Below, piece by piece: positions 42,525-52,292 of a stretch of DNA of 64,000 nt (positions are counted from its first letter, which is position 1; every line of letters starts with the position of its first letter). The stretch covers positions 124,001-188,000 of the forward strand of contig JAROBA010000001.1 of the NCBI GenBank assembly GCA_029432815.1. The letters are read 5' to 3'. Below the pieces are notes generated by a model. The model had not been told where the DNA came from and made no database searches. It was given only the letters and a program-made list of their open reading frames with translations. The translations under genes were made by a program, and so were the position numbers. Source of the DNA: Pontiellaceae bacterium B1224 (GTDB lineage Bacteria > Verrucomicrobiota > Kiritimatiellia > Kiritimatiellales > Pontiellaceae).

Positions 42525-43925
42525 TCATTGATCTGCTGCCGCGGACAGCCCCCGGGCATTCGAAACCGAATTACCGGATCCGTTATCGGTAACCGGACCG
42601 ATGCTGGTGATCGTGCAGAAACTGACGTCCCGTCCGATTTCCACCGGCATGCCCGTTTCGTTATTCAGGGTGATTCCCTTCGCCGGCCGCGTTCCCAGCG
42701 GCGAAAACGGATTGCATCCCGCAGGACGGGTCGCCCCGACGAGAATCGGAAGCTCCTGCGCACGGGCCATATTCCGCCACGGTTTCAGCGTTACCACGTG
42801 GTCCTCGCCCGCAATCGTTGCAACGGCATGGACCGTTGTGGTGTTGGCTTCCGGCATTAACGCAAGATCCACAATGGAGGGATCGCCTGCATTAAGATAC
42901 AGCAGCGGCCCGTTGACCGCATCGCCCCGGCTGTTTTCAACAGTCACCCCATCCAGATTATATCCGGCCTCACACCCCGTGGCTTCGCAATCCTGAACCA
43001 GGATATCCCCCTCGATCTTCGACAGGGCAAACCCGATACGGCAGTTTTTGGCCCGGCAGTTCACAAAGCGCATGGCGCCCGTTTTGTGTCCCTCCGCCCC
43101 GCCGGTTCCATAGTTGCGGAACCCGCATTCGCTGAGCGATTTGGTGTAGCCCGGGGTGATGACCTTTTCGCCGTTATAGTTTTTATATACCGCTTCAAAG
43201 CCCACATCAAAGGCCGGGCCTTCGGTTTCCGCCAGCATTTCATCGGTTGTGCGGGTCACCGCCTCGGCATAGCAGTTTTCGAAATATACATTGCGGCCGC
43301 CCTGAACAAAAAACAGATGGCCGAAAGATCTGGAATAAATGGAGCAATCCAGAATCTTAATGTTCAGACCGGTAACCAGCATGCCGCTGTGTTTCTGCAG
43401 GCGAACCAGACTGCCGCCCCCCTTCCCGATCAGATCACCGTAGCCATAGGGAGAAGAGCCGCTCATATTCAGCGTAACGCCCCTAATCTCATTGTTCTTA
43501 CCGTCGACGACAAATGATTGCCCGCCCTTGCCCGTTGGCGCGTTTCCAAGGTCTGTAACCGTCAGGCCACCGATCCGGTTGTTGCTGCCGGTCACATAGA
43601 ACTCCATGACCTTTCCGCCGAATGCGTTCAGCAGTTCGGTATTCACCTCGATGGTTACCCCGGTGAAATCGAATGTGTTACCACTCCCGCTGAAAGAAAT
43701 CATGGCCGCCCCCATGACAGGGTCTGAAACCGTATTGCTGATGACCGCGGGCGTCAGATAATCTTCCATCCGATAAACGCCCGGCTTCATTTTAATATTC
43801 TGACCACTCTTGGCCGCAACCTCCGCCAGTTCCGCCAGCGACGTAATGCCCGTCACCCTTGCTGCCGAAACATTCGCCACGGCAACCGCCAGCCCGATCA
43901 CACTCATCAACCATGTCTTCATCAT
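42525..43925 (-). CDS. Right-handed parallel beta-helix protein, shorter paralogue
   Basis: About 466 residues, start taken at ATG 43925 (AAAGG upstream; 43922 equally possible), signal peptide (MSVIGLAVAVANVSA). The body has beta-helix rungs with repeated SGSGNTFDFTGVTIEVN, GSNNRIGGLTVTDLG, GKNNEIRGVTLNMSG and CRAKNCRIGF. It matches the first two-thirds of the next protein almost line by line but stops where that one begins a LamG domain. Resembles polysaccharide-lyase or GH28-like helices but no catalytic set is identifiable. Function could be a lyase or a glycan-binding protein. Confidence 0.7.
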   Translation of the reverse strand: MMKTWLMSVIGLAVAVANVSAARVTGITSLAELAEVAAKSGQNIKMKPGVYRMEDYLTPAVISNTVSDPVMGAAMISFSGSGNTFDFTGVTIEVNTELLNAFGGKVMEFYVTGSNNRIGGLTVTDLGNAPTGKGGQSFVVDGKNNEIRGVTLNMSGSSPYGYGDLIGKGGGSLVRLQKHSGMLVTGLNIKILDCSIYSRSFGHLFFVQGGRNVYFENCYAEAVTRTTDEMLAETEGPAFDVGFEAVYKNYNGEKVITPGYTKSLSECGFRNYGTGGAEGHKTGAMRFVNCRAKNCRIGFALSKIEGDILVQDCEATGCEAGYNLDGVTVENSRGDAVNGPLLYLNAGDPSIVDLALMPEANTTTVHAVATIAGEDHVVTLKPWRNMARAQELPILVGATRPAGCNPFSPLGTRPAKGITLNNETGMPVEIGRDVSFCTITSIGPVTDNGSGNSVSNARGLSAAADQ

Positions 43926-43980
43926 AATCATCCTTTGCATCTTTGCAGAAAACGGCTTTTCAGCCAGCCATCAACCTTGC

Positions 43981-46284
43981 TTATCGACGCCAGGTTTCCA
44001 GTTTGTAAAAACGGTTCATCCGGGCTTCATCCATCGGCACCGCAAGTTCCAGCGTGCCGCCGTTGCCCTCCATCACATCGCCCGCCGCCTGCCAGCCCGG
44101 AGCCGCGAGATGGTCGGTTTGCTGGATCCGGAAATTATGTCCGAGCCCTGAAGCGGGAATCGTAAATGAAAAATTCAGACGGTTCGTGCTCCCTTCGCCG
44201 GCGTCAACCACTCCGCCAACCACGCCCTCCAGCGCCAGCGCGCACGCATCGGGATAGTCCAGATGAAGCAGCTCGATCTCCTGCGCGGTCAGCGCAACAT
44301 TGTACAGACGCACATCATCGATCAGACCGGAATAGAAGCGCGTGTTGAGCTGCGCTCCAATGCTGACCTCCACGATCCCGGACAGCTCCCGGTTCTTTCC
44401 CGCAGCACCGGCCCACAGGGATCCGTTCAGATAAATTTCCATCGTGCCCGCGGTTGCATTTTTCGTAAAAGCCCAGTGGTTCCAGCGCCCTTTGAATTCG
44501 CTCTCAACCGCAACCTTGCTGATCCGGTCATAGTCGTTTGTATCGCCCGCATCCCAGTAGACCTTACCGTCTGAATACGGAAGATGAATATTCAGGAGGC
44601 GTTCACCGGCCGGGCCGGCGGCATAAAACGCGGTATCCGCCAGCGGCTGCTCATCGGCGCCAAATACCCACATCGCAATAGTGACTTCATTGCTGATCGA
44701 ATCAAAAGCAACGACGGGCAGTACAACCCGCGAGCTGGTTCCATTGAATGCCAGCGCACCGTCGGTCGCCCCGACCACCCATTCGGCTGACTCCACCGAT
44801 CCGTGGTTTCCGGCGTCGGAGGAGTCGGAAGCAACGGCTCCGTTCAGATCGTCAAGACGCCACCAGCCGACCGGATCGACGGCACGCATGCGCGTGATCG
44901 TATTCCCGGAACCGGCATTTGTGATCTCCCCGTTGCCGGTGATGACACTCGAACTTACGGTGGAACCGACCGTCACCGGCAATTCAGTATAGTTGTTCAG
45001 CGTGATGCCGGAAGTTGCCGGCGTTCCAAGCGGCGAAAACGGATTGCTTCCCGCCGGACGGGACCACCCCACCAGAATGGGATGAATCTGCCCGCGCGTC
45101 GCATCTTCCCATTTCTTGAGCGTCACCACATGGTTGTTCCCGGCAATCGTCGCAATCGCATGCAGCGTGGTGACGGCTTCGTTGGGCACCAGCGACAAAT
45201 CAACCGTTGAAACCTGTCCGTTCAGATACAGCAGCGGCCCGTTCACCGCGTCGCCGCGGCTGTTTTCAATCGTCACGCCATCCACATTATATCCGGCCTC
45301 GCATCCGATGGTTTCACAGTCCTGAACCAGAATATCGCCGTCGATGCGGGTCAAGGCAAAGCCGATCCGGCAATCCTTCGCCCGGCAATTCACAAAGGTG
45401 TGCGCGCCCGTGGTATACCCGCCGGGCCCGCCGGAGCCATAGGTGCGGAAGCCGCACTCGCTCAGCGATTTGGTGTAGCCCGGGGTAATGACCTTCTGCC
45501 CGTCATAGTTTGCATAGACCGCCGCAAAGTCCACATCGAACGCCGGCCCCGAGGTTTCGGCCAGCATCTCGTCGGTCGTGCGGGTTACGGCTTCCGCATA
45601 GCAGTTTTCGAAATAGACATTGCGGCCGCCCTGGATAAAAAACAGGTGGCCGAAGGAGCGCGAATAGATGGAGCAGTCGAGAATGTTGATATCCAGCCCG
45701 GTGATCAGCATGCCGCTGTGCTTGCGCATGGCCACCAGGCTCCCGCCCCCCTTACCCAGCAGGTCGCCGTAGCCATAGGGATAGGACCCGCTCATATGCA
45801 GCGTCACATCCTGAATGGTATTATTTGTGCCATCGACGACAAATGATTGCCCGCCGCTGGCCGTCGGCGAATCCCCGAGATCGGTAACCGTCAGCCCCTT
45901 GATCACGTTGCTGCTGCCGGTCACATAAAATTCCATGACCTTGGTTCGGAAATCGTTCAGCAGTTCGGTGTTCACCTCAATGGTTACCCCGGTCAGGTCG
46001 AACGTATTGTTGCTTCCGCTGAAAGCGACCATGGCCGATCCCATTCGAGCGTCGGGAACGGTTGCACTGATCACCGCCGGGGTCAGATAGTCCTCCATCT
46101 GATAGACCCCAGGCGTCATGACGACCTCCTGGTCCGAACCGGCTGCTGCTGCAACGAGTTCGGCAACACTTGAAACTGTAACACCTACGGCATTCAGGTT
46201 GATCAACAGACAGCCCAGGCAGGTATAGAGAAAATTTTTGTATGGCGACAAACGATGGCTCATTAGAGAAACTCCTCGCTTCAT
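43981..46284 (-). CDS. Right-handed parallel beta-helix protein with LamG and C-terminal module
   Basis: About 767 residues; start at ATG 46284 or 46263 (both have Shine-Dalgarno-like sequence). Beta-helix (about 35-450) is paralogous to the gene 42525-43925. A LamG-type jelly roll follows (VGWWRLDDLNGAVASDSSDAG...GRWNHWAFTKNATAGTMEIYLNG...FYSGLIDDVRLYNVALTAQE). The last 75 residues are the shared module (SGLGHNFRIQQTDHL...NRFYKLETWRR), closest to the lyase at 14867. It is the first gene of the 15-kb operon and faces the LacI gene. Likely a secreted lyase or binding protein of unknown substrate. Confidence 0.75.
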   Translation of the reverse strand: MKRGVSLMSHRLSPYKNFLYTCLGCLLINLNAVGVTVSSVAELVAAAAGSDQEVVMTPGVYQMEDYLTPAVISATVPDARMGSAMVAFSGSNNTFDLTGVTIEVNTELLNDFRTKVMEFYVTGSSNVIKGLTVTDLGDSPTASGGQSFVVDGTNNTIQDVTLHMSGSYPYGYGDLLGKGGGSLVAMRKHSGMLITGLDINILDCSIYSRSFGHLFFIQGGRNVYFENCYAEAVTRTTDEMLAETSGPAFDVDFAAVYANYDGQKVITPGYTKSLSECGFRTYGSGGPGGYTTGAHTFVNCRAKDCRIGFALTRIDGDILVQDCETIGCEAGYNVDGVTIENSRGDAVNGPLLYLNGQVSTVDLSLVPNEAVTTLHAIATIAGNNHVVTLKKWEDATRGQIHPILVGWSRPAGSNPFSPLGTPATSGITLNNYTELPVTVGSTVSSSVITGNGEITNAGSGNTITRMRAVDPVGWWRLDDLNGAVASDSSDAGNHGSVESAEWVVGATDGALAFNGTSSRVVLPVVAFDSISNEVTIAMWVFGADEQPLADTAFYAAGPAGERLLNIHLPYSDGKVYWDAGDTNDYDRISKVAVESEFKGRWNHWAFTKNATAGTMEIYLNGSLWAGAAGKNRELSGIVEVSIGAQLNTRFYSGLIDDVRLYNVALTAQEIELLHLDYPDACALALEGVVGGVVDAGEGSTNRLNFSFTIPASGLGHNFRIQQTDHLAAPGWQAAGDVMEGNGGTLELAVPMDEARMNRFYKLETWRR

Positions 46285-46409
46285 GATTATCCGCTCCGAC
46301 CTTTCTTTAAAAACGCCGTCCACACCCAACCGGTATGTTCTGGCAGATATCGATATTCAGCTACTGTGATTTATATCCTTGATTGCCCAATAAAACAGCG
46401 CATATTTCA

Positions 46410-47526: not shown

Positions 47527-50500
47527 TTAAGTTTCTTCAGAAGCTTTGATCCCAATCTTCAGCTCGCCTAAATCTACAGGCTTCTCTGGATTCACTCCAT
47601 CGGCAAGCTCCGGCACCTCAACCTCAACCTTCAGCTCGCCTACCTGTTCTCCAAACGGATTCTTTCCGGGCTTCGAATCAGTGCGTTCAATAACCGTTAC
47701 ATTCAACTCATACCGACCAGGCTCTACGTTTTCGATGCTAAACGATCCGCCCTCACCAACATTCGCGGAATAGTTCCGTTTGAGTTCTCTTTCTTTCAGG
47801 TTGGCTTTGGTTAAGGAGAGAAAGGTCATGTGCTTCCCATCGCCATCCCATCTGCACTGGCCAACAACCTGACGGCCCTCTTTTCTGAAATTCATCTCGA
47901 ACACCCCCACATCGATTGGCGTATCCAGATACTTCACCCCTTCAGGCAGTTCTGGCACCTCCACATCTGCCGATGCCGACCCTATTAACTTATGAGATGG
48001 ACCATTGCGCCTCTCACCTTTCTCATACATGGATACACTCATTGAGTAATCCCCGGGTGGAATATTATCAAGTTGGAACCTGCCGTCATCCCCCACCTCA
48101 CCCAGATAAGCTAGAGGGGTGATAACTTTTCTTTCTCCATCCTCAAGTTTCATCTTTGAAAGAGTAATTTTTATCGTACCCGAGAGACTTGGATCCCAAA
48201 CACATTGGCCGGATATGGTCCCCCCCGTACCCCCCAGCTCTAAAACCAGCTTTTCCCCGGCATCTATTTTATACGCGGAACTTCCAGACATCATCCTCTC
48301 CCCGCTGGAATAGATTACTTTCCTCCCCACCTTATACTCACCGGCCGGCACCCTAGGAAAAACGAATTCTCCATCGTCATTGCATCGAGCCGAAGTCCAT
48401 TGCATCAACTTTTTAGAATCGAATGAGAAGTCATTATTCATAAACATTATAGGCTCCCCGGCTCCCGGACGGTCACCCATCATTAATCGGCCAGATATGC
48501 TTGCCCACGGTATTAGATGAATTGTGCCACCTGCAGCAGCAAATGCATCCAGGTCGCCCTCCCAATACCCTTGATCACAGGAAATATACAACCGATACGG
48601 AAGCTCCTCTTTAGACGGAAAAGAAAACTGCCCCAGACTTCCCGTGACAGCTGAACCCTCACGATCATGCTCATCTATAACACCCTCATACAGCGTAATC
48701 ATACCCTCCGCCCTCAATAAGGCCACCATCGCCCCGGCGACCGGTTGAGAATCATGCCCCAGCACCGTCCCCTCTATTCCCCCACCGGGTTCCAGCTTGA
48801 CTTTAAACTCAATATGTTCGACATCTACAGCCACTTGTTTTGTTCTGACCGTCTTATATCCATCCGCCCGAACCCGTATGACGCGGGCAACATGACTCCC
48901 CCCGCTGAATTCATGTTCCCATCGGCCATTCTTACCTTCTGTTGAATAGCGGCTAACGTCAAACCATTGCCGGCCGACGTCTCCTCCCTCATCCCAAATT
49001 CTGCCTTCATCAACCTTAAAGCGGGGTATCGGAAGCCCGGTCTCGGCATCAGTTACAGTGAGGATCACTTTTGCCCCTTTCTTCAATGTCACGACATGAA
49101 CGTCATCCACTCCCTGACTAGGAGAATAGGATTGAGCACCCTCCCATAGCTTTCCTTTAGCAGAAATACCAAACTGAACGGGCTCGGGCGGTCCCACCCA
49201 AACAGCCTCACCCTTCACATCCGTTTCCATTCGCCCTTCAAGAGTCTGATTCTCCCTCCACGTATCGGGGCTGATTGTCGCCCCTTCGATCGGCTTACCC
49301 TCCGTATCCACAACCCGGAATTTAAAGAGCACTCCCGGCTTTAAGATAAAATCAATGGGTTCAATTTCCGGCCCTGCCATCGTTTTCTTGATCAGCTGCG
49401 GCGCATACCCTTCTGCCGTCACCGTCAGAACCAATTCAACTCCCGGAATGCCATATATCATATACCGTCCCTCGGCATCGGTATACGTTGGCTTAAAATC
49501 AATATTATAGTGACTCCCCCCTTCCGCCACCTTTGCATTTTCAATCGGATTACCTTCCTGATCTTTCACCTGACCGGACAGTACAACAGCCCGTTTAAGT
49601 ACCGCTCTGGCCTCATACCCAAGAGGACTATAGCCTTCAGCCCACATATCATGATAATATCCCGGCTTCTTCCAGCGGACATCGATCTTTGCACCGGGAG
49701 CCGCGCATACAGGAGGACTGGTCCAACGGCCTTCCTCATCGGTAACGACACGCTTCATATGCCCCATCCCCGGATGGCCTACCGTTCCTAGATCCGGACC
49801 TGCATCAATCCGGATTAGTCCGGTGGCATTCGCCATGGGCTGTCCGTCTTCATCAACCACAATCCCCCCCACGGTCCGGGAGGGACTAAGAATGGCTACG
49901 ATTTCAGCATCCTGCGTCCGGCCCATTCCATAATCATTTTTGTACAGGTTGGAGGCATATCCTTCCTTCGCAACCAACACGGAACGCTGCAACAGCATGC
50001 CTCCCTGTACTGCCGGAGTAAGAGCGACTCTGCCTTCCTCGTCGGTCTGCATCTCAACAGTACAGTTGAGCAAATGTGAGTCCAGAATCACCGTGGCATC
50101 CGATATCGGCTCACCGGCCAGATCAACCACCCGCACGTGCGTTAAAAAATCCTCTTTCTTTTCCGAGGGTAGTTTTATTCCGTCACGCGGTTCAAAACGC
50201 AATTCAGTCATCTCAAACCAGCCCTCTTCGGTCTTTCCGGCTTTAACGTGCATATCAAGATAACCTAAGCGCTGTTTTCTAATTTTCATTTCAGGCATCC
50301 GCTCAGTCAGATCAATACGCAGCGTATGCTCCCTGCCGTCTACCTTGAGGTCTTTCATAAAAAGAACCGTTACATCTTCGCTGTTTTCCCGCGAAAATAC
50401 CAAAACCGGCTCATCGGGATGCTCTGCATCCAACCCATCTGCGCGATAGGTAACCTCCATTATCGACAGCTTTTTAGGCCAGATCCATAGTCCAATCGGA

Positions 50501-51765
50501 TAGTGAACGACAGCTGGCTCCACTGGGTCCGGACTGATCAGGCGAAATGCATCATCATTCATTTCAAATCGCCAATAGGGCGATCCAGATTCATGCGACC
50601 AGGGCATTTGCAGATTAATGCCCACACCAACTTCGGGCTTCGATTCTCCTTTATCACTGGCCACAGCCATACAGATGGCGGTCAGCATTAATAACGATGC
50701 AATGGACAAGACGCTCATCCGTTTATGCTGGCGATAGTTTTCGCCCATGATCCGGACAATGCGTTTCCCTAGCGAACTGCGTTGTTCTGTAATCCCGATC
50801 GATGCACAGACAAAAGCGGCACTTCTCTGCTGCGCTTCTTCGACCACCCTCAGGATGCTCTCGCTATACTGCTTTCTTCGGCTTCCGCAATGAGCAATCG
50901 CCAGGTCATCACATGCCAGCTCCCGTTCATGGCGAATGCGCCGGTTAGCCAACCAGACCAACGGATGAAAAAAGAATAGCATCTGAACCACGATCTGGAC
51001 GGCATTAACCATTAGGTCCATCCGTTTGATGTGGGCGAGTTCATGCAACAGCACCGGTTCACGCGCTTCAGCATCCCATGCATCAAGCATCTGCCGGGAA
51101 ATCAGCAGCACCGGGCGCAGAAAACCAAATACACAGGGCGTACGGAACCGCCCGCTTTCATCACATTCAAAAACCTTCACCTTGTGGCGCACACCAGCCT
51201 GTTGACGCAGCGCATTGAATTCCTCGAGAAAGGCAGAATCCGTAACCCGGGAACAACGTCGAAGTGCGAGAAGCGCACGGACAACCCACACCAGAACAAG
51301 TCCAACCAATAGAAAAACCACGCCCGCCCAACCTAGAACCAGTCTTACAGTGAGCGGCATGGGAGCTCGGAGCGGAGCGGTTACGTTTGGAACTTCAGCA
51401 CGCGGATGGGCCGGAGTGGTCGGCATCACCTGCTCAGGTTTTGGCACTTCAACCACTTCCACCTTTTTGATAACAACCGGTTGTGTCGGGGCTACTACCA
51501 GAGTCGAAGACTTTTTAAACACCGAGGTAACCGAAGCTTCCGCCACCTTTTCAACATGACCGCTCAGTCCAATCGGCAGTTGTAGATTGACAGGAAAACA
51601 GAGGCGCAGCAGCACCGTGCACCACAGCAGATACCGAAAGCTGGCCGACAGGCGTCGACAGAAAAATGAAACCACCCAAAGCGCAACGATAAGAACCGTG
51701 AGCTGCCAGCTCAGACTCCATAGCAAACTCCCCAAACATTCCCCCAAATCCAATACCGAACTCAT
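47527..51765 (-). CDS. BlaR1/MecR1-type M56 membrane metallopeptidase with carboxypeptidase-regulatory-like repeats
   Basis: 1412 residues. The first 350 contain membrane segments and the M56 zinc site LLHELAHIKRMD (near 240) with the third ligand region RHERELACDD, as in BlaR1. A further membrane segment (about 355-370) precedes the outside part. In BlaR1 that part is a penicillin-binding sensor; here it holds about six copies of a carboxypeptidase-regulatory-like (Ig-like) repeat, for example VVDEDGQPMANATGLI, VDTEGKPIEGATISPD and GHDSQPVAGAMVALL. So it likely senses something other than beta-lactam. The gene overlaps the BlaI stop by four bases. Confidence 0.85.
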   Translation of the reverse strand: MSSVLDLGECLGSLLWSLSWQLTVLIVALWVVSFFCRRLSASFRYLLWCTVLLRLCFPVNLQLPIGLSGHVEKVAEASVTSVFKKSSTLVVAPTQPVVIKKVEVVEVPKPEQVMPTTPAHPRAEVPNVTAPLRAPMPLTVRLVLGWAGVVFLLVGLVLVWVVRALLALRRCSRVTDSAFLEEFNALRQQAGVRHKVKVFECDESGRFRTPCVFGFLRPVLLISRQMLDAWDAEAREPVLLHELAHIKRMDLMVNAVQIVVQMLFFFHPLVWLANRRIRHERELACDDLAIAHCGSRRKQYSESILRVVEEAQQRSAAFVCASIGITEQRSSLGKRIVRIMGENYRQHKRMSVLSIASLLMLTAICMAVASDKGESKPEVGVGINLQMPWSHESGSPYWRFEMNDDAFRLISPDPVEPAVVHYPIGLWIWPKKLSIMEVTYRADGLDAEHPDEPVLVFSRENSEDVTVLFMKDLKVDGREHTLRIDLTERMPEMKIRKQRLGYLDMHVKAGKTEEGWFEMTELRFEPRDGIKLPSEKKEDFLTHVRVVDLAGEPISDATVILDSHLLNCTVEMQTDEEGRVALTPAVQGGMLLQRSVLVAKEGYASNLYKNDYGMGRTQDAEIVAILSPSRTVGGIVVDEDGQPMANATGLIRIDAGPDLGTVGHPGMGHMKRVVTDEEGRWTSPPVCAAPGAKIDVRWKKPGYYHDMWAEGYSPLGYEARAVLKRAVVLSGQVKDQEGNPIENAKVAEGGSHYNIDFKPTYTDAEGRYMIYGIPGVELVLTVTAEGYAPQLIKKTMAGPEIEPIDFILKPGVLFKFRVVDTEGKPIEGATISPDTWRENQTLEGRMETDVKGEAVWVGPPEPVQFGISAKGKLWEGAQSYSPSQGVDDVHVVTLKKGAKVILTVTDAETGLPIPRFKVDEGRIWDEGGDVGRQWFDVSRYSTEGKNGRWEHEFSGGSHVARVIRVRADGYKTVRTKQVAVDVEHIEFKVKLEPGGGIEGTVLGHDSQPVAGAMVALLRAEGMITLYEGVIDEHDREGSAVTGSLGQFSFPSKEELPYRLYISCDQGYWEGDLDAFAAAGGTIHLIPWASISGRLMMGDRPGAGEPIMFMNNDFSFDSKKLMQWTSARCNDDGEFVFPRVPAGEYKVGRKVIYSSGERMMSGSSAYKIDAGEKLVLELGGTGGTISGQCVWDPSLSGTIKITLSKMKLEDGERKVITPLAYLGEVGDDGRFQLDNIPPGDYSMSVSMYEKGERRNGPSHKLIGSASADVEVPELPEGVKYLDTPIDVGVFEMNFRKEGRQVVGQCRWDGDGKHMTFLSLTKANLKERELKRNYSANVGEGGSFSIENVEPGRYELNVTVIERTDSKPGKNPFGEQVGELKVEVEVPELADGVNPEKPVDLGELKIGIKASEET

Positions 51766-52139
51766 GACTCTTCCCTCTTATGTTCATCTATCAGCTTCTT
51801 CAGTGATGCAATTTCATCTTCATTCAATTTCCGGCGCTCGGCCAAATGGGCAAACAGTGGAGCCAACCCATCGTCCATCACAGTAGAGAAAAAGGATTCA
51901 ATGGCCTCAGAGACAATCCGCTTCTGTTTAACACAGGGTTGATAGAGACAAAGCGGCCCCAGTTTTTCGCGCTTCAGGAAGCCCTTCTTCACAATGCGAT
52001 CCAGCATCGTTTTAACGGTCTGGTATTCCCATTCCCGCTCCTCCGCAGCCGCCTCATAAATCTGCCGGGCCGTACTTTTGCCCTTTTCCCAACAGAGATT
52101 CATGATCATCCATTCCGCTTTCGAGAGTTCCCTACCCAT
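51762..52139 (-). CDS. BlaI/MecI family transcriptional repressor
   Basis: 125 residues: winged helix (LSKAEWMIMNLCWEKGKSTARQIYEAAAEEREWEYQTVKTMLDRIVKKGFL) and a C-terminal dimerisation helix. Family members repress their own operon and are cleaved by the M56 partner on signal. The start is preceded by GGAGG with good spacing. An inverted-repeat operator candidate lies 31-60 bases upstream. Its only partner here is the downstream M56 gene; no beta-lactamase follows, so the regulated function lies elsewhere or is the receptor itself. Confidence 0.9.
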   Translation of the reverse strand: MGRELSKAEWMIMNLCWEKGKSTARQIYEAAAEEREWEYQTVKTMLDRIVKKGFLKREKLGPLCLYQPCVKQKRIVSEAIESFFSTVMDDGLAPLFAHLAERRKLNEDEIASLKKLIDEHKREES

Positions 52140-52157
52140 AACAGCCTCCGATTAGTT

Positions 52158-52183
52158 TGTAGCGACATCACTACATTTGTGGT
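52158..52183. promoter_or_regulatory. BlaI-type operator candidate
   Basis: ACTACA-TT-TGTGGT (52170-52183) is one base from a perfect inverted repeat and fits the TACAnnTGTA BlaI/MecI consensus. An overlapping TGTAG-8-CTACA repeat starts at 52158. It is 31 to 45 bases before the BlaI start, typical of autoregulation. Confidence 0.6.
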
Positions 52184-52292
52184 AGATGATCTGCAACAAT
52201 AAAACTTCTCAATTTTCAAAGAGTACAAATCGGCATGAAATCTCATCCCGGATGGGTAGCAAAGAAGCTTTAGATAAAGCGCCCGGTTTTAA

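Follow-up and report, generated by a model that had tools for sequence, protein, structure and literature searches.

A BlaI/M56 gene pair of Pontiellaceae bacterium B1224 with an ectodomain of carboxypeptidase-regulatory-like repeats

Introduction

BlaR1 is the textbook example of a protease receptor that directly cleaves its own repressor, and to our knowledge it is nearly always discussed together with beta-lactams. Here we examine a gene pair of similar anatomy, a blaI-type repressor gene followed by a gene for an M56 metalloprotease receptor, that lies in a 64,000-nucleotide stretch of the Pontiellaceae bacterium B1224 genome (assembly GCA_029432815.1, contig JAROBA010000001.1, positions 124,001 to 188,000 of the forward strand), which we refer to in its entirety as the window. 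The operon order and upstream dyad operator of Staphylococcus aureus BlaR1/BlaI resemble those of the window pair. The likeness extends to the proteins, as both BlaR1/BlaI and MecR1/MecI (structures 8exp-8ext) set BlaI beside a membrane M56 gluzincin with a large C-terminal extracytoplasmic part, and the H-E-x-x-H, E-x-x-x-D, D, Y and R residues of BlaR1 all have equivalents in the window receptor. The two differ in that the window receptor carries an orphan segment and CarboxypepD_reg repeats rather than a class D-like penicillin-binding protein (PBP) sensor, that no operator-bearing beta-lactamase accompanies the pair, and that the residue at the autocleavage position is probably not Phe. 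In our best reading, the window pair has the anatomy of BlaR1/BlaI, but its sensor has been swapped and probably faces the envelope, and its output is mainly autoregulatory; it is a member of the M56 and BlaI families and not of the BlaR1 beta-lactam sensors.

A BlaI/BlaR1-like pair that responds to something other than a beta-lactam is not a new idea, since one is known from cyanobacteria: excerpts of a study of Synechocystis (PMC7896320) describe PetR and PetP, a neighboring BlaI-family factor and BlaR1-family protease that are copper responsive and have petE and petJ as targets. PetR/PetP resembles the window pair in consisting of BlaI/BlaR1-like neighbors, and its input is not a beta-lactam. 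A different parallel comes from BlaI_1845 of Clostridium thermocellum, for which excerpts of a DNA affinity purification sequencing (DAP-seq) study report paired inverted repeats and a regulon that extends no further than its own operon (PMC8457756). Autoregulation, an own-operon regulon, and paired inverted repeats would all fit the window pair, whereas BlaI_1845 belongs to another phylum, has a GACTAT-like motif, and has an operon that, in the same excerpts, adds two hypothetical proteins. The window pair also has a counterpart in Planctomyces sp. ACE_PLA29 (locus L185, JAHBXW010000003.1), where blaI and the M56 gene again overlap by 4 bases and the ectodomain of the 1493-aa M56 protein matches CarboxypepD_reg at 2e-38, although a phmmer search with the window repeats did not pick up this ectodomain at E 0.01.

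Results

The repressor and the protease

A preliminary description of the window, made from the sequence letters, had named a BlaI/M56 pair with a HELAH metallopeptidase, and profile searches confirmed this identification. The repressor matched PF03965 (Penicillinase_R) over profile positions 1-115 of 115 (E 6e-31, 107.6 bits against a cut-off of 22.6) and is a member of the BlaI/MecI/CopY family; its best NCBIfam models, CopY_TcrY (84 bits) and BlaI_of_BCL (68 bits), each scored below their own cut-offs. The receptor matched PF05569 over residues 15-337 (E 6e-43, 147.5 bits, cut-off 31), has its HELAH motif at residues 241-245, and belongs to peptidase family M56 by both its profile match and its gluzincin HExxH...ExxxD signature. 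Both genes lie on the minus strand, and the stop codon of blaI shares 4 bases with the start of the M56 gene. Past the M56 stop, at a distance of 8 bases, lies the end of a LacI-type gene in convergent orientation, so the transcription unit probably consists of blaI and the M56 gene alone.

The catalytic residues and the fold of the protease part both point to BlaR1. Excerpts of the BlaR1 cryo-EM study name H201-E-x-x-H, E242-x-x-x-D, Asp210, Tyr261, and Arg294 (PMC9834060), and by alignment the equivalents in the window receptor are H241, H245, E282, D286, D250, Y300, and R335. Together with E242 of the HELAH motif, these residues are invariant among 16 aligned M56 proteins, and six positions (those of HExxH, D250, E282, and D286) are invariant among 54. 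The first 371 residues matched S. aureus BlaR1 (8exp) at 8.9e-08 in phmmer. We modeled residues 1-545 with AlphaFold2 (AF2) using 53 homologue rows that covered the M56 part only (53 of 71 eligible homologues were taken into alignment A5), and the model was confident over most of the protease part. Compared with known structures, this part matched BlaR1 chains (8exs) with a VIA Z of up to 19.7 over 255 residues, and the best row other than BlaR1 was Ste24p, with a Z of 11.7. Hydrophobic segments near residues 13-43, 135-172, and 349-371, along with positively charged inner loops, would fit a topology in which the C terminus lies outside the cell, and a proline-rich loop at about residues 61-137 lies where BlaR1 has its EL1 loop. 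Used as a query for close relatives, the receptor returned 4 pattern matches, with no relative among them.

An extracytoplasmic string of repeats without a recognized penicillin-binding domain

The part of the receptor that follows residue 371 comprises 1041 aa. The preliminary description had seen here a run of Ig-like regulatory repeats of about 1000 residues, a view that stands with the refinement that roughly the first 170 residues are an orphan region. CarboxypepD_reg (PF13620) matched with a whole-protein E of 1.3e-41 (141.2 bits, cut-off 32.3), which places the repeats in that family, and it covered eight stretches at a lenient cut-off. The repeat region also matched PF13715 (1.3e-16), plus the fold relatives Big_1, SpaA, and EMC7. 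The region between the membrane and the repeats, residues 372-545, matched no Pfam family and no PDB sequence; its sole match in 43 genomes of the order was the region itself, and in 387 genomes of the phylum nothing else fell under E 0.002, with five weak matches at E 0.002-0.008. The AF2 model of residues 1-545 places about eight strands there with low confidence, and the Foldseek and VIA searches of that model barely probed the region.

Neither the Pfam nor the NCBIfam scans of the receptor reported a transpeptidase or beta-lactamase family, and the PBP motif set (SxxK plus KTG) is absent from the ectodomain sequence. The NCBIfam model blaR1_generic aligned to its positions 11-333 of 585 only, with 112.9 bits against a cut-off of 400, and the VIA list for the model of residues 1-545 held no PBP row, a result that by the tool's own note excludes nothing. 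Because the class D-like penicillin-binding domain that defines BlaR1 beta-lactam sensors was not found, the receptor is not one of them. Elsewhere in the genome, the sole PF13354 match is a DacA-like D-Ala-D-Ala carboxypeptidase, and there is one PF00144 serine hydrolase (contig C135). Exact, mismatch, and strict-dyad searches found no copy of the operator described below on the contigs of these two proteins, and the genome-wide searches found none before a beta-lactamase or PBP2a-like gene, the kind of co-regulated gene that goes with BlaR1-type systems. The absence of a penicillin-binding domain outside the membrane and of a beta-lactamase gene, both stated in the preliminary description, agrees with the profile scans and, for operator-bearing genes, with the whole genome. 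Since the Ig-like string takes the place of the penicillin-binding domain, the signal is most likely one from the envelope or the surroundings rather than an antibiotic.

Table 1. Coordinates of the gene pair, its protein regions, and its upstream elements in the window
Feature	Position	Strand	Basis or remark
M56 metalloprotease receptor (P0001)	47527-51765	-	1412 aa, PF05569; BlaR1-like sequence and fold
CarboxypepD_reg (transthyretin/Ig-like) repeats, residues 546-1412	47530-50130	-	PF13620, PF13715
Orphan juxtamembrane region, residues 372-545	50131-50652	-	beta-rich by low-confidence model
Membrane part with predicted cytoplasmic gluzincin domain, residues 1-371	50653-51765	-	residue conservation, hydrophobic segments, charges
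blaI-type repressor (P0002), winged helix and dimerization part	51762-52139	-	125 aa, PF03965
Shine-Dalgarno-like GGAGG before the blaI ATG	52145-52149	-	read from sequence
Extra half-site GCTAC, a remnant or a second, weak dyad	52159-52163	-	read from sequence
Putative operator dyad ACCACAAATGTAGT upstream of blaI	52170-52183	-	9/10 fixed bases of ACTAC-N4-GTAGT

A putative operator ahead of blaI

The preliminary description had called the sequence ahead of blaI operator-like and typical of BlaI, and our counts are in line with this. The dyad ACCACAAATGTAGT lies 30 bp ahead of blaI, and the best operator score of this upstream region (9/10 fixed bases) was matched in 6 of 5000 dinucleotide shuffles. 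On the forward strand, TACATTTGTG is found at 52172-52181(+), within the dyad ACTACATTTGTGGT (52170-52183), and the surrounding 13-base pattern has no second copy in the 64-kb window and occurred in 0 of 100 shuffles. These results support a putative BlaI operator that is autoregulatory in appearance and unlikely to have arisen by chance.

We compared upstream regions from two samples of BlaI/M56 loci, one from the phylum and one, which we call the named set, mostly from Bacteroidota, Acidobacteriota, and Planctomycetota. At least 8 of the 10 fixed bases were present upstream of 39 of the 74 blaI genes of the phylum sample (shuffles gave a mean of 2.45 and a maximum of 7) and at least 9 upstream of 18 of the 74 (shuffle mean, 0.15), and the perfect ACTACATTTGTAGT precedes three blaI genes of that sample. 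In the named set, 13 of 76 upstream regions reached at least 8 bases, compared with a shuffle mean of 3.8 and maximum of 8.

The genome was also searched for other genes that carry the operator, as the preliminary description had proposed. The exact sequence is single copy and stands only before its own blaI. Three sites with one mismatch all lie within open reading frames (ORFs), and a search that allowed two mismatches gave 72 matches versus 150 for a reversed control, and thus no enrichment. A strict-dyad search gave 12 sites: three are in blaI promoters (one in the window, two on contig C125), eight are inside ORFs, and one (L252) lies about 100 bp ahead of an unrelated gene.

A probable mechanism and the points against it

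We consider it probable that the window encodes an autoregulated BlaI/M56 pair in which the PBP sensor of BlaR1 has been replaced by a CarboxypepD_reg string. Without a signal, a BlaI dimer would occupy the operator and hold the blaI-M56 operon low. A signal acting on the extracytoplasmic string could be the binding of a ligand in the envelope or outside the cell, or some change in the layer that the string spans. It would be relayed inward via the final membrane helix, and the gluzincin site in the cytoplasm would then cleave BlaI and free the operon, possibly along with a small number of scattered genes whose sites are weaker. As to what is sensed, our guess falls tentatively on the state of the envelope, with a polysaccharide or nutrient somewhat less probable and some other input about equally so.

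Several observations weigh against this interpretation. The window pair has one full dyad and a half-site, whereas each of the two sister pairs in the genome has two full dyads, and a sigma-70-like promoter was not found between 51700 and 52400. None of the 76 named-set upstream regions, which come from other phyla, reach 9/10 fixed bases, so the dyad motif is not universal and has diverged in that set. The autocleavage loop of BlaR1 has Ser-Phe, and the residue at the position of its F284 is probably Ile325, or is uncertain, as it was counted from R335 across a gapped loop alignment. An AF2 model of the ectodomain made without homologues had a pLDDT (predicted local distance difference test score) of 31.7, with no ligand-binding site modeled, and the shape of the repeat string is for this reason taken from its family. 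Finally, if the regulon were the pair's own operon only, a physiological output would be missing.

The sulfatase neighborhood and a possible polysaccharide input

An alternative that we think unlikely, yet the best of the rivals, is that the pair is a polysaccharide or nutrient sensor whose repeats bind fragments of sulfated or acidic polysaccharides, and that it controls a neighboring sulfatase and lyase cluster. The preliminary description had placed the pair among sulfatase and lyase genes. Pfam scans of eight neighbors upheld the first of these, with two sulfatases, a GH116 protein, a SASA esterase, a LacI protein, and one neighbor containing Laminin_G_3, whereas a lyase family was not named among the eight. 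Relatives offer further points in favor, drawn from 15 hand-picked downstream proteins (10 + 5) that we scanned, the mechanical list of 71 frames having many spurious entries. A GH20 gene lies 85 bp downstream of a CarboxypepD-type M56 gene in L154, a pectic acid lyase-like gene lies 20-24 bp downstream of the M56 gene in L119 and L122 (two genomes, one family), and GH127 (L165) and GH5 (L182) genes also lie downstream of M56. TonB-dependent-receptor-like genes follow M56 directly in L193, L201, L205, L232, and L239, with Pfam checks made for L201, L232, and L239.

These neighbors weakly suggest a polysaccharide reading, but a link of the pair to the sulfatase/lyase cluster, which the preliminary description had implied, fares poorly against the rest of the data. 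The exact operator is found at the pair's own promoter only, and strict dyads outside blaI promoters are in ORFs or before an unrelated gene. The sister pairs lie outside sulfatase surroundings, and the LacI gene in the cluster would be a more ordinary regulator for it. Proximity to a sulfatase is also cheap in a genome with about 101 sulfatase matches. M56 was over the cut-off in 4 of the 43 genomes of the order. Among 28 genomes of the same genus, M56 presence does not track sulfatase number: the four M56-positive genomes have 128, 3, 23, and 79 loose sulfatase candidates, and in the four richest in sulfatases (706, 641, 346, and 211) no M56 match exceeded the cut-off. A search of the genus for a homologous sulfatase neighborhood gave no match at E 1e-120 with which synteny might be compared.

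Elsewhere in the window, the adjacent proteins encoded at 42525-43940 and 43981-46329 (-) closely resemble each other in their N-terminal parts. A Laminin_G_3 domain lies in the C-terminal part of one, and the other has no Pfam match.

Sister pairs in the genome

The genome (5.38 Mb in 204 contigs) holds three BlaI-M56 pairs. All three M56 ectodomains match CarboxypepD_reg, the third at 25.5 bits, which is under the curated cut-off. Identity between the window pair and the other two is only about 29-30% for the M56 part and 24-25% for BlaI. The other two lie on contigs C125 and C121 among genes unrelated to the sulfatase cluster, one of them near a secretin gene; we take their neighbors to be upp/glgA (starch-synthase)-like on C125 and, together with the secretin, urease-like on C121. 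An apparent fourth BlaI in the genome proved to be a MarR-type protein.

One pair of this genome (L008) is orthologous to a pair in a genus mate (L077), with 57% identity in BlaI and about 58-59% in M56, and the genes that neighbor the two differ, a further point against a tie of such pairs to the sulfatase cluster.

Distribution of the pair and exchange of ectodomains

M56 is present in 55 of the 387 phylum genomes. We collected 109 M56 matches (106 from the phylum search, rows summed, and 3 more from the order search), of which 86 frames in fetched regions were analyzed, two of these being fragments of a split gene (L087); those dropped were mainly frames of about 300 residues. Same-strand BlaI genes adjoin M56 in 75 of the 86 phylum frames and in 79 of the 87 named-set frames. 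For ectodomain families we counted 80 of the 86 phylum frames, leaving out six with ectodomains of <140 aa, and 73 of the 87 named-set frames, open-ended or short ones being dropped. The phylum ectodomains comprised 13 with CarboxypepD_reg, 6 with Transpeptidase, 5 with Secretin, and 4 with ExbD, with TPR and ankyrin fewer, and CarboxypepD_reg was found in 8 of the 73 named-set ectodomains, among them that of the Planctomyces metagenome-assembled genome (L185). The phylum counts (6/80 transpeptidase versus 13/80 CarboxypepD_reg) suggest a minority role for beta-lactam sensing in the use of this chassis there. The window pair, which has a defined operator and two divergent sister copies in its genome, makes this idea testable by a reporter.

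Architectures that combine M56 with CarboxypepD_reg are listed in Pfam. In the open-licence literature that we searched, no description was found of BlaI/M56 in Planctomycetes or of BlaR1/M56 with a carboxypeptidase regulatory-like domain; the CarboxypepD version seems undescribed in that literature, yet it is common in genomes.

The exchange of ectodomains bears on a further alternative, rather unlikely in our estimation, in which the repeats are a mere spacer or adhesive tail, the membrane part (the loop at 61-137, or a metal) reads the signal, and the ectodomain evolves freely. In the orthologous CarboxypepD pair L008/L077, the ectodomain (30% identity) has outpaced the divergence of the protease (59%), and it has not done so in the PBP-bearing pair L093/L123 (41.7% in the M56 part and 42.7% in the ectodomain), but one pair of each kind is a thin comparison. 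In an M56 tree built by a quick method (84 rows, without the two L087 fragments), one starred (supported) clade of eight contains four kinds of ectodomain (CarboxypepD, PBP, ankyrin, and SecDF-like). A metal as signal would also be compatible with CopY_TcrY being the nearest NCBIfam model of BlaI, if below its cut-off, and with the proposal, in excerpts of PMC7896320, that PetP protease activity is copper dependent. Against this, a stretch of >1000 residues free of stops would be costly for a spacer, and CarboxypepD strings are found on M56 lineages that are separate from one another, with 7 changes of this label on the tree (shuffled mean, 12.4), at least 2 of them forced by starred branches.

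The weakest rival, which we regard as improbable, is an ordinary sensor of beta-lactams or peptidoglycan damage that works with a PBP encoded separately, the repeats contacting that PBP or a muropeptide-bound protein; the chassis is the same as that of BlaR1 by fold match, the genome encodes a DacA-type PBP, L093 and L123 have M56 proteins with PBP ectodomains that share a clade with some CarboxypepD types, and excerpts of PMC9834060 still discuss a Mycobacterium tuberculosis homologue without a sensor domain in beta-lactam sensing, but the operator precedes no beta-lactamase or PBP gene and the ectodomain lacks the SxxK plus KTG set.

The preferred reading, an autoregulated pair with a swapped sensor, could be extended to a broader one that we hold to be doubtful: BlaI plus M56 may form a general one-step transmembrane chassis with freely exchanged ectodomains, a modularity like that of histidine kinases, in which the window copy would be an envelope-spanning reader of about ten consecutive Ig-like domains, signaling the condition of the layer through which they pass, with feedback mainly on its own operon. 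The exchanged ectodomains behind this idea are CarboxypepD strings, whole PBPs, and secretin-like, ExbD-like, ankyrin, TPR, and SecDF-like types.

Individual loci add some detail on these receptors. The ectodomains at L093:4148-5893(+) and L123:5100-6938(-) differ from BlaR1 and its class D-like sensor in that each resembles a complete high-molecular-weight PBP, with PBP_dimer and Transpeptidase. Secretin, SecDF_P1_head, ankyrin, TPR, LRR/STN, and BamB-like propeller ectodomains were seen on BlaI/M56-type receptors at L164, L084, L097, L101, L216, L208, and L196. Two related-looking lipoprotein-like genes of 254 and 257 aa, with no Pfam family, follow M56 in two genomes of the same genus (L078:1531-2295(-) and L080:5238-6011(-)) and are a possible operon output. 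At L146:1151-8467(-), a 2438-aa M56 protein with a BlaI gene beside it has an ectodomain of about 2000 residues.

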